Of a DNA stretch of 64,000 nucleotides, positions 12,252-15,633 are shown piece by piece; the first letter of the stretch is position 1; each line of letters opens with the position of its first letter. The notes under the pieces were generated by a model. It saw only the letters and a list, made by a program, of their open reading frames with translations, was not told the origin of the DNA and made no database searches. The position numbers and the translations under genes are program-made. Source of the DNA: an uncultured bacterium (lineage in GTDB: Bacteria; Cyanobacteriota; Vampirovibrionia; Gastranaerophilales; Gastranaerophilaceae); contig CACYTP010000002.1 of assembly GCA_902777385.1 (NCBI GenBank), forward strand, positions 1 through 64,000, read 5' to 3'.

Positions 12252-13067
12252 TTATTGTCTTGCAGAAATTGCGTTAGCGATAATTTCCATTTCTTCCAAT
12301 GAAGCATAAACAGCATGGCAACCGCAGTCGACATATAAAATTTGACCTGTTGTACCTGTTGATAAATCTGAAGCTAAGTACAAACCTGCTTTACCAACAT
12401 CTTCAAGTGCAACATTTCTGTTGAGAGGAGCTTTTGCAACAGCTGCTTTAAGCATCTTGTCAAATCCTGAGATACCCTTAGCGGCAAGAGTTTTAACAGC
12501 ACCTGCTGAAATACAGTTAACACGAACTCCTTTTTTACCGAGGTCAGCTGCCAAATATCTCATAGATGATTCTAATGCAGCTTTAGCAACACCCATTACG
12601 TTGTAATTTGCTACAACATATTCAGAACCAAGATAAGTCATTGCAAATATTGAACCGCCTTCGTTCATAATCGGTTCAGCATGACGGCATAAAGATATTA
12701 GAGAATATGCACTAACACCCATAGCTAAATCCCAACCTGCACGAGATGTGTCAATAAATCTGCCCTGTAAATCTTCTTTAGCGGCAAATGCAACAGCATG
12801 AACAACAAAGTCTAATTTCCCGTAAACTCTTTCGCATTCTTTGAATACGGCTGCAACTTCATCTTCTTTCGTAACATCACATGACATGATGATTTTTGCA
12901 CCCATTTCTTCTGCCAAAGGTCTTACACGTTTTTCCATTGGTTCGCCTGCATAAGTAAATGCAATTTCAGCACCTGCTTCGTACAATTGTCTTGCTATTG
13001 CGTATGCAATACCGTGAGTATTGGAAACACCAAAAATAATACCCTTTTTGCCTTCCATTAATTTCAT
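12252..13067 (-). CDS. fabI: Enoyl-[acyl-carrier-protein] reductase (NADH)
   Basis: This 271-residue short-chain dehydrogenase-like enzyme carries out the last reduction of each fatty-acid elongation cycle. The FabI nucleotide-binding start GIIFGVSNTHGIAYAIA and the catalytic YNVMGVAKAALE segment (Tyr with Lys seven residues later) are present. Length is normal. GGGAG lies upstream of the ATG. It is a single-gene unit ending at the shared terminator at 12206-12235. It would be the expected target of triclosan-type inhibitors if active. Confidence 0.95.
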   Translation of the reverse strand: MKLMEGKKGIIFGVSNTHGIAYAIARQLYEAGAEIAFTYAGEPMEKRVRPLAEEMGAKIIMSCDVTKEDEVAAVFKECERVYGKLDFVVHAVAFAAKEDLQGRFIDTSRAGWDLAMGVSAYSLISLCRHAEPIMNEGGSIFAMTYLGSEYVVANYNVMGVAKAALESSMRYLAADLGKKGVRVNCISAGAVKTLAAKGISGFDKMLKAAVAKAPLNRNVALEDVGKAGLYLASDLSTGTTGQILYVDCGCHAVYASLEEMEIIANAISARQ

Positions 13068-13194
13068 AGTTATAATCTCCCTTTTCTCAAATACTTAAAC
13101 TAAGATACAAGCTGATTCTATCATAAATATAAATCCATGGCAAGTTTGTGAAAAACTCTCGTTTTTCTGAAGCAGGGTTGAAAAATTCTAAAAG

Positions 13195-13427
13195 GCAGGC
13201 TAGTCTGCTCTTATAGAAGCTTCGCTCGTGGAATGCAAAGGTTAGTCGTGATAAAAATATAAGGGTTGCAGAAGTAAAAAAATATGTTATAATGATAATG
13301 TACAAAAACCACGGAGGATATTACCATGATTGAATTTAAGCATAGGGGGGGGGGTAAAATCCTCTCGTAGTAAAGGTTTACAAGATTTGCAGGCTAGCCT
13401 GCCTTTAGAGATGCTTCGCTCGTGGGA
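13195..13427 (+). repeat. Direct repeat pair flanking the prepilin start
   Basis: A segment of about 39 bp occurs at 13195-13233 and again at 13389-13427. Both copies begin GCAGGCTAG.CTGC and end with the shared 13-mer CTTCGCTCGTGG plus one or two bases. The first copy is upstream of the prepilin promoter; the second is inside its leader. The arrangement indicates that repeat units inserted or recombined across the gene's 5' end. Confidence 0.65.
13266..13293 (+). promoter_or_regulatory. Promoter of the prepilin-like gene
   Basis: TTGCAG (13266-13271) and TATAAT (13288-13293) with a 16-bp spacer stand just before GGAGG (13313-13317) and the ATG at 13326. The transcription and translation signals of this gene are intact although its leader is disrupted. 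Confidence 0.6.
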
Positions 13428-14420
13428 TTTTTTAAACCACGGTGAGGAAAGAATTAATCCTATTTTACGTCATCCTGAACAAAGACCAGTAAACAGTTCA
13501 TTACGGGATATTACTTTATGTCATCCCGAACTTGTTTCGGGATCTAGCCACAGTAAAACTTTAGGTAGTACTCAAAAAGAGAAGGTCGTAGCAAGTAGCA
13601 TGGGTCAGATGCTGAAACGGTCTTGGATTTGCTCCACGCTCGAACAGCCTCGTTTATGTGCCTTAAACGGCACAGTAAACTCGGTATTCTCGCTATCCGG
13701 ATTACACTTCGTTTCATCCGTCCGCAAATCCGCAGTTTAATCACCCTCGGTATTATTGGTGTTGTTGCGGCTCTGACACTGCCTACATTGATTGCAAATT
13801 ACCAAAAGCGTGTATATGTAACCCAGTTAAAGAAGTCGGTATCAGTCCTGTCCAACGGATTTAGGCTCATGATGGCACATGATGGAGTAACAGAATTAAA
13901 AGATACAACAGCGTTTAGTGGTATGTTAAATGAAAATAGATGCCAGAATGGAGGTTCTAATGGTACTAGTGGTAATTTACTTACCGATGAATGCCGTAGT
14001 ATGAAAGAGGGATTAGAGAGTGTGTTTTCAGGTATTCAGTTTGTTCCGTGTAACGGTAAATCGTCAAAAACATTGAACGGTGGAGATGCTCCTATTCCTG
14101 CACTCAAAAAGCTTTCAACCACTACATGTATACAGTTCCCTGATGGCTCTGAAATTATTCATTTCTCAGCTAAAAAAACAGGTGAGAATGTAGGTATAAT
14201 TGTTGATATTAACGGAGCTAAAAACCCAAATACTGTGGGCAGAGATATTTTTTGGCTGCATGTAAATAATAATGGACATATAACGGGCAGTTATAGTGAA
14301 GAAGAAAGTAAAAATTGGCGAACTGCAACAGATAGTAGATACAAATGTGAAATGGATGGCACAAGTTACGGCTATGGTTGTGCCGGCAGAGTACTTGAAG
14401 AAGATGCAATGAATTATTAA
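13326..14420 (+). pseudogene. Prepilin-like protein gene with a repeat-derived, frame-broken leader
   Basis: A good ribosome-binding site and ATG (13326) open a frame that begins MIEFKHRGGG and stops at 13368, just after a run of ten G (13345-13354). The pseudopilin body resumes at about 13735 as LITLGIIGVVAALTLPTLIA, the type IV prepilin hydrophobic helix. It stays open to 14420, with a C-terminal VDINGAKNPNTVGRDIF typical of this group. Between them lie about 390 bp of repeat sequence. One fewer G would put the start into the frame open to 13740, and one extra T at GTTTAA would join that to the helix. The FTLAE processing motif expected before LITLG is missing. The gene is broken, phase-variable or affected by homopolymer errors. 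From TTG 13623 the body frame is open, but without a leader. Confidence 0.65.
13525..13541. repeat. Inverted-repeat unit of the CCCGAA...TTCGGG type
   Basis: CCCGAA, a five-base spacer and TTCGGG form the core of a dispersed intergenic repeat whose translation reads CHPELVSGS. A degenerate relative (CATCCTGAAC) lies 45 bp upstream. Here the repeat sits inside the prepilin leader region. Such elements are usually non-autonomous. Confidence 0.55.
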
Positions 14421-14422
14421 AG

Positions 14423-14456
14423 CAGTGAACAGTAAACAGTGACCAGTGAACAGTTC
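14423..14456 (+). repeat. Short tandem GAACAGT-type repeat after the prepilin-like gene
   Basis: Four or five imperfect copies of a 7-mer (CAGTGAA/CAGTAAA/CAGTGAC) are strung together directly after the stop codon. The 15-mer ACCAGTGAACAGTTC at 14442-14456 recurs with one mismatch at 13485-13499 in the gene's leader, linking the repeats on both sides of the gene. Confidence 0.6.
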
Positions 14457-14490
14457 GTATCGGTGCTGTCGCACAGTTAAAATAAACCAT

Positions 14491-14671
14491 GTCATTGCGA
14501 GCAAATCAAAGGCTTGATTTGCGTGGCAATCCAGCTTATTTATCATAACAGTAAAATTTAATGGTAAGGTAATTAATTCTACAAATGATAAAACGGAGCA
14601 AATTTAAAATAATGAAACTTATTAAACAGATGTAAAAACGGCTGGATTGCTTCGCTGTCGCTCGCAATGAC
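14491..14671. repeat. Inverted pair of GTCATTGCGAGC...GCAATCCAGC elements
   Basis: The element GTCATTGCGAGC...GCAATCCAGC lies at 14491-14535 on the plus strand and at 14641-14671 in reverse complement, with 105 bp between them. This sequence type is a common dispersed intergenic repeat in several bacterial groups. The opposed copies could form a large hairpin or act as ends of a small non-autonomous element. Confidence 0.65.
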
Positions 14672-14691
14672 ATGAAATATAAAATTTGCCT

Positions 14692-14776
14692 AAAGGCAAT
14701 CCGATAGGTCGGGGAAATAATATAGTCATACTAATTATTTCAATCCTCCAAGATACCTGACCATCGGATTGCTTTT
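14692..14776. repeat. Inverted repeat AAAGGCAATCCGAT...ATCGGATTGCTTTT
   Basis: Arms at 14692-14710 and 14759-14776 are complementary over about 17 bp with two irregularities, and enclose a 48-bp AT-rich loop. The right arm ends in TTTTT on the plus strand, so it could end transcription from the prepilin-like gene. It may instead be another member of the dispersed repeats. Confidence 0.5.
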
Positions 14777-14817
14777 TATTATGTGTGTAAAGTGTGAAGT
14801 CTAGTGGAAAATCCGGC

Positions 14818-14907
14818 GGCATATAAGAGTAGGCTTTGCCAAAAATACCACGGAAAAAGTGTGAAAATATGCGGAAAAACTGGTGGCATATAAGAGTAGG
14901 CTTTGCC
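14818..14907 (+). repeat. Direct repeat pair GGCATATAAGAGTAGGCTTTGCC
   Basis: The same 23-mer occurs at 14818-14840 and 14885-14907, 67 bp apart, upstream of nusB. The spacer also carries related ACGGAAAAAGTGTGAAAAT/GCGGAAAAAC pieces. Together with the elements to the left it fills the 553 bp between the prepilin-like gene and nusB. I see no gene or RNA there. Confidence 0.65.
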
Positions 14908-14973
14908 TACCCTTGCAACCCTCTTTTTTTATGGTAATATAAATTTGTAAAAGATAATTAAAGAGGAAAATTT

Positions 14974-15633
14974 ATGCAAGCTAGACGCGCCGCAAGAGAA
15001 TTAGCATTTATACTGTTTTCACAGTTTGAAAAAAATATTACCAATTATTCTAAAAATGATTTAGAAGATATTATATTGAAATCTGTAAGAATTTTATCAG
15101 GTAACGCAAGTGATGAATTAAAAATTTCTTTAGGTGCGTTGATTGATATGAAAAACAAGATTAATGATTATGAGGCAGAACACGAAATTAATTTGAACAG
15201 ACCCATTGGAGCCTCAAATATTCCTGTTCCTTTACCTACGACATCTGATATGTCAGGTAGAATTGACGAGATGATTGATATTGCAGAAAAAGCTTTATTG
15301 GCACTCGAGATAGCTGAATTTACTACTTTGGATTCTCAGAATGAAGTAAAATCTTATGCTATTCAAATTGCGGAAACATTCCAGAAACATCACGATGCGG
15401 TTGATAATGAAATTAAAAAATATGCAAAAAACTGGGATTTTGAGCGTCTTGTAAAAATGGATAAGGATATATTGAGAATTGCTATTGTCGAGTTATTGTT
15501 TATAAAAGATGCACCGATGAAGGTTGTTGTGGATGAAGCTTTAGAACTTGCTAAAAAATATTCTACGGATGATAGCTATTTGTTTATTAACGGAATATTG
15601 GCAAAAGTTATTGTTGAAAATGGATTACAATAA
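14974..15633 (+). CDS. nusB: Transcription antitermination protein NusB (long, cyanobacterial-like)
   Basis: The 219-residue protein has the NusB C-terminal core (DKDILRIAIVELLF, VVVDEALELAKKYSTDDS, FINGILAK). NusB binds boxA RNA with NusE in rRNA antitermination. Most bacterial NusB are about 140 residues. This one begins MQARRAARELAF and has an insert of roughly 70 residues, a layout I know from cyanobacterial NusB. That is one of the better lineage clues in the window. Its stop overlaps the ftsY start (TAATG). Confidence 0.9.
   Translation: MQARRAARELAFILFSQFEKNITNYSKNDLEDIILKSVRILSGNASDELKISLGALIDMKNKINDYEAEHEINLNRPIGASNIPVPLPTTSDMSGRIDEMIDIAEKALLALEIAEFTTLDSQNEVKSYAIQIAETFQKHHDAVDNEIKKYAKNWDFERLVKMDKDILRIAIVELLFIKDAPMKVVVDEALELAKKYSTDDSYLFINGILAKVIVENGLQ

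Follow-up and report, generated by a model that had tools for sequence, protein, structure and literature searches.

Introduction

In Neisseria, the poly-G tract of pilC is located in the signal-peptide region and the repeat of the opa genes in the leader. The pilC gene undergoes poly-G phase variation by genic tracts of G9-20, and opa genes carry CTTCT repeats at up to ~12 loci (PMC5953494). Type IV prepilins are recognized by their class III signal peptide (Gly or Ala at position -1, FTLAE with Glu5 and a hydrophobic stretch of ~21 residues), and their known leaders are 6-26 aa long (PMC4471445). Rickettsia palindromic elements are known as in-frame insertions (PMC10969869).

The window analyzed here, i.e., the whole stretch of 64,000 nucleotides from a member of the Gastranaerophilaceae, carries a prepilin gene that can be compared with these systems. 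As in Neisseria pilC, poly-G is found within the coding sequence, ON/OFF states would depend on the reading frame and type IV pili would be affected. However, pilC encodes a pilus adhesin/assembly factor present in one or two copies, whereas here the prepilins themselves would be switched, at dozens of loci, by a tract located in a class III leader. As for opa, one type of surface protein is encoded at many scattered loci, and since every locus has a repeat of its own close to the start, combinations could vary. Unlike here, the opa repeat is a pentamer and not poly-G, the proteins belong to the outer membrane, the loci number about a dozen (compared to up to 56) and their leaders have no repeat insertions. 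The pilE/pilS system shares with these genes a diversity of pilins within one genome, and an exchange of bodies between loci is also suggested here. However, pilS cassettes are devoid of promoter and start, whereas each gene found here has its own Shine-Dalgarno (SD) sequence, ATG and, for the modules that we call type A, promoter, and we found no locus dedicated to expression like that of pilE/pilS. Rickettsia palindromic elements, compared by behaviour only, are likewise short dispersed repeats in frame within protein genes, but the insertions described here cluster at a single tolerant site, the prepilin leader, a part that should be removed by cleavage. Searches of open-access texts (an incomplete library) retrieved no report of poly-G switched pilins in this lineage.

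Leader modules in the genome of the window

The genome of the window (G000, 2.32 Mb) has about 60 prepilin starts, of which about 40 carry a common leader module of two main types, MIGFKHR-G and MSISVFDLR-G. Every module comprises an SD, an ATG, 6-10 codons, the G tract and, after the tract, VKSSRSKGLQ, usually followed by a single open frame to the prepilin. On its way to FTLAEVLITLG, this frame crosses repeat cassettes that vary from one copy to the next. Nearly all type-A modules are preceded by TTGCAR/TTGAAA-N16-17-TATAAT, and the DNA further upstream differs. Tracts of at least nine G are strongly concentrated in these modules: 35 occur in the genome, compared to about one expected (first-order Markov estimate from the composition of the window), and 34 of them lie in prepilin leader modules. 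The sole other one (L297, C14:30818) is a G10 tract located, in frame, in the signal-peptide region of a protein with a TonB-C domain.

Intact paralogues of the window copy carry the FTLAE motif of type IV prepilins, and two out of three score above the cutoff of Pfam N_methyl (PF07963). The genome also has genes for a prepilin peptidase (PF06750 at C21:22119) and for PilC-like platform proteins (PF00482 at C17 and C2). Motif and machinery identify the intact genes as type IV prepilins, leader length apart: the repeat-bearing leaders reach about 180 codons and so fall outside the known range. The first-pass annotation had mentioned prepilins of gut relatives with long leaders made of similar repeats; such leaders are indeed found in dozens of genes, both here and in further species of the family, and several of them contain CHPELVSGS/MLKQVQHD segments. 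Other genes are repeat-free and have leaders of ordinary length (L164, L171, L163 and L071; e.g., MTMFSPRGGGVRTSRSKGLQAFTLAEVL in L164). The ancestral leader was probably an ordinary one of 20-30 aa carrying a G tract, into which repeats were later inserted, in frame, between SKGLQ and FTLAE. The repeats are passengers in the leader, and the putative switch is the G tract adjacent to the ATG. Furthermore, L078, L095, L089, L090, L098, L108 and others have a duplicated FTLAE (FTLAEGATHVAQSAKPRRAAFTLAEVLITL, a 20-codon unit), possibly giving two prepilin cleavage sites.

The copy integrated between fabI and nusB

The features of the window copy and of its surroundings are the following:

12252-13067, minus strand: fabI
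13130-14920, plus strand: whole pilin cassette between fabI and nusB (approximate limits), absent at this site in three congeners
13266-13293, plus strand: sigma70-like promoter, TTGCAG (-35, 13266-13271), 16-nt spacer and TATAAT (13288-13293), conserved at type-A modules
13313-13328, plus strand: Shine-Dalgarno GGAGG (13313-13317), 8-nt spacing and ATG start (13326), conserved across modules
13326-13344, plus strand: first part of the prepilin leader, MIEFKH, with about 30 other near-identical loci in the genome
13345-13354, plus strand: G10 tract, the putative frame switch, at a position common to the modules; ATG frame open onward only at G9/G12
13355-13388, plus strand: continuation of the conserved leader, VKSSRSKGLQD, in a frame shifted by one base from that of the ATG
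13389-13428 (also 13195-13234), plus strand: dispersed repeat GCAGGCTAGCCTGC...
13501-13620, plus strand: dispersed repeat encoding CHPELVSGS...MLK
13607-13736, plus strand: further repeat encoding RSWICSTLEQPRLCALNGTVNSVFSLSGLHFVSSVRKSA, with a 96% copy at C5:2666-2802 and also found inside the intact leader of L161
13731-13745, plus strand: deletion joint GCAG/TTTAATC (break after GCAG), FTLAE lost and frame shifted by comparison with L161
13737-14420, plus strand: pilin body, with an N-terminal helix devoid of FTLAE and an intact C-terminal part, 57-64% identical to several full-length paralogues
14974-15633, plus strand: nusB

The promoter, GGAGG and ATG are all present, in agreement with the intact start signals described in the first-pass annotation. 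Its reading of the frames was also accurate: at G10, the ATG frame encodes MIEFKHRGGGKILS* and stops after 14 codons at a TAG (13368-13370), and one G fewer (G9), or two more (G12), opens 137-138 codons (about 135 had been announced) through repeat DNA, ending in VRKSAV before a TAA (13738-13740). Each tract length from G7 to G14 was tried and none leads from the ATG to the pilin body. The 390 bp separating the start signals from this body had been taken for dispersed-repeat DNA replacing the leader. The repeats are real, since pieces of 13326-13745 match about 70 places of the genome (13476-13618 has a 94% identical copy at C8:6444-6586), but the first ~60 bp, including the G tract, are the conserved leader module found about 40 times. 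The repeats did not replace the leader; they were inserted between the conserved SKGLQ and FTLAE.

The sibling species represented by G004 (MAG RUG10582, which we take to be of rumen origin) carries at L161 the same repeat followed by VQHDKKRKVAFTLAEVLITL, and the window copy is about 46 nt shorter than this intact arrangement. Its pilin body begins with LITLGIIGVVAAL... and has, as previously described, an intact open frame, which is one base off at GCAGTTTAATC; the FTLAE of type IV prepilins is missing at the joint. An extra T at GTTTAA had been proposed as a second homopolymer switch. This candidate was ruled out: compared with L161, the site is a deletion scar, and no tract length rescues the gene. 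Since both FTLAE and the frame were lost by deletion and no tract length restores them, the window copy is a pseudogene whatever its tract length. The earlier doubt, that the loss of FTLAE reflects decay, was therefore right for this locus. The further possibility that no FTLAE-containing alternative exists does not apply to the family, in which FTLAE-containing paralogues are numerous. Another broken pilin (C5:2666-2868) has a joint that is similar to that of the window copy but different. The predicted structure of the window pilin body associates a long N-terminal helix and beta strands with low confidence (mean pLDDT 58.8), and a PDB fold search with this low-confidence model found no match.

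Tract length and reading frame

Among 147 tract loci followed by a pilin core, 131 have an open frame from tract to pilin (unselected figure). For 99 distinct leaders, picked for being open, an open frame such as that observed has a median probability of 0.01, and stops interrupt both other frames in nearly all of them. The 131 tract-pilin frames, from 31 genomes, comprise 17 in frame with the ATG (ON), 76 at +1 and 38 at +2. ON states are thus depleted (17/131 compared to the expected one third, nominal P = 9e-8, paralogues not being independent), and a phase-variation model therefore needs selection for OFF.

Paralogues with similar flanks within one genome differ in tract length and hence in state. 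Three paralogues of G083 share the same leader, of which L241 is ON at G11 while the others are OFF at G12 and G9. Of the 20 frames resolved among the 56 modules of G012, those at G12 are ON (n = 5) and those at G13 OFF (n = 13); in G006, G9 is ON (L266) and G10 is OFF. The in-frame copies of G004 include L156 (G12) and L178 (G9), and its G10 and G11 copies are at +1 or +2, with one exception. Two properties of contingency genes are therefore found in the family, i.e., a repeat whose length sets the reading frame (G012 and G083) and a length that varies between similar copies, although no length gives the pilin in the window copy. Slipped-strand phase variation would explain the placement of the tract, the length differences between similar paralogues and the mixed states. 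With a probability of about 0.7, these genes form a large and mostly OFF repertoire of poly-G phase-variable prepilins, whose leader tolerates in-frame repeat insertions; it is known from assemblies, which give one length per locus. Slippage of the G run as a switch of a repeat-encoded prepilin leader, first put forward for the window copy, thus seems to hold for dozens of genes of the family but not for the copy for which it was proposed, which is dead at any length.

Other genomes are more uniform: all 10 offsets are G10/+2 in G048 and all seven are G11/+1 in G145. Of the 20 intact cases in the genome of the window, 17 have the pilin frame at +1, three at +2 and none in frame, and the +1 offset is kept even where a substitution lengthened the run. 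Within these three genomes, offsets appear more uniform than expected from a free drift of tract length. This uniformity, including the +1 offset retained despite substitutions, would fit a model in which tracts are normally out of frame, and slippage of transcription or frameshifting of the ribosome at the G run yields a steady low expression without any DNA switching. L121, in which a stop codon of the pilin frame immediately precedes the run, agrees with it, since any change of frame must happen inside the run. However, lineages differ in the offset needed (+1 in G000, G006 and G012, +2 in G048), some copies are in frame, close paralogues have tracts of different lengths and some intact genes retain interrupted runs; we thus consider this model unlikely. 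Frameshifting by the ribosome at the stop codon itself (...TCGTAG) was set aside because this stop context is not common to the genera. Somewhat less probable still is an intermediate situation, in which the out-of-frame offset would be selected because RNA polymerase slippage at the G run provides low-level expression, rare tract changes leading to full expression. If it were true, the pilus coat would be a graded mixture set by the tract lengths of 30-56 loci and encoded in the discarded leader.

Five modules have interrupted G tracts (L061, L098, L099, L116 and L101), and in the four that have a pilin the offset is still +1 and the frame stays open as far as the pilin. Those with intact frames (L098, L099 and L116) are not fully explained by the phase-variable repertoire if they are locked OFF.

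Mobility of pilin cassettes

Three congeners (L328, L332 and L334) lack a pilin at the fabI-nusB site, and the search for an intact orthologue of the window gene found none. Comparison of the cassette with these three sites showed no clear target duplication. Upstream of nusB, G004 carries the promoter of the modules but no pilin gene (L327), perhaps the relic of a lost cassette. At a syntenic locus (L090 in the genome of the window, L162 in G004), the flanks are orthologous and the pilin bodies differ, that of G004 resembling other loci, which suggests that bodies were exchanged between loci. The absence of the cassette from fabI-nusB in congeners and the different bodies of L090 and L162 indicate that pilin cassettes move or recombine.

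Such exchanges, together with the large majority of OFF copies, would also be expected if these copies were mainly a silent store, comparable to Neisseria pilS, that donates pilin bodies to expressed loci, with a secondary role for the tract. We give this only a small chance, since the OFF copies keep an SD, an ATG, a promoter (type A) and a frame open over the whole leader, all needless for stores, and no single expression locus is evident.

It is very improbable that translation starts elsewhere, the tract being irrelevant. Most type-A modules of the genome of the window do contain ATGATTG, whose TTG, four bases past the ATG, is in the pilin frame (+1), and some leaders end in MGKKAAFTLAE, i.e., with a Met near FTLAE. 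However, in most leaders of G004 (ATGAGCGAATTTTCACCTA-G10) as well as in L088 and L094, the pilin frame contains no ATG, GTG or TTG ahead of the tract, and in L121 it contains a stop. Many leaders lack a Met close to FTLAE, and an internal start would not need the upstream leader to be open, yet it is. TTG and internal Met starts were thus rejected as general rules.

Distribution in the family

The pattern GGAGG-N-ATG-N-G9 was found in 40 of the 145 sampled genomes of the family and in 13 of 41 genera, its reversed control being near zero. In a sample of the order, 63 of 192 genomes carry it, all from this one family, compared to none of the 22 genomes from other families. Modules reach 56 per genome (G012). 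Their leader sequences are unrelated between genera and alike within species. That tract lengths are assembly or sequencing errors in genes that are really all in frame is hardly credible and was rejected as the main cause: although the assemblies are drafts, some contigs end at modules and homopolymers are error-prone, random errors would not repeat one offset at unlinked loci, the same architecture is found in 31 genomes and confined to prepilin leaders, and the joint of the window copy is a deletion independent of the tract.

Clear non-pilin matches are few in the family. One of them, L197 (G052:C8:79832), is an epimerase-like gene (ISGGGGFLGSNI...) with an out-of-frame G11 tract among its first codons, and may encode a phase-variable sugar enzyme. 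Furthermore, a tract-bearing prepilin-like gene of G103 (L202) has in its body a CPPGW stretch that recalls, by eye, phage tail collar proteins.

Discussion

In the phase-variable repertoire that we propose, each gene has its own SD and ATG (and promoter for type A) and a poly-G tract located 6-10 codons past the ATG. As read from the frames, one tract length modulo 3 joins the ATG to leader and pilin (ON), and with the two others a stop is reached within about 10-20 codons (OFF). Individual pilins would be switched independently of one another by slipped-strand changes of their tracts and, most copies being OFF in assemblies, a cell would make a small and changing subset of dozens of pilins. 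The motif suggests that the prepilin peptidase removes the leader at the A/G-FTLAE site, including in the case of long leaders. Cleavage of the leader would explain why in-frame repeats between SKGLQ and FTLAE are tolerated: a disposable peptide would let mobile repeats spread through a coding sequence.

If this is right, automatic annotation misses or truncates many pilins of these genomes, because the consensus shows most of them out of frame. A single family of gut bacteria would possess, for one type of surface protein, a repertoire of poly-G switched genes of unusual size, in which the switched units are the pilins themselves and the tract lies within the part that is cleaved off. Pilus composition could thus vary from cell to cell, evading phages or host immunity.
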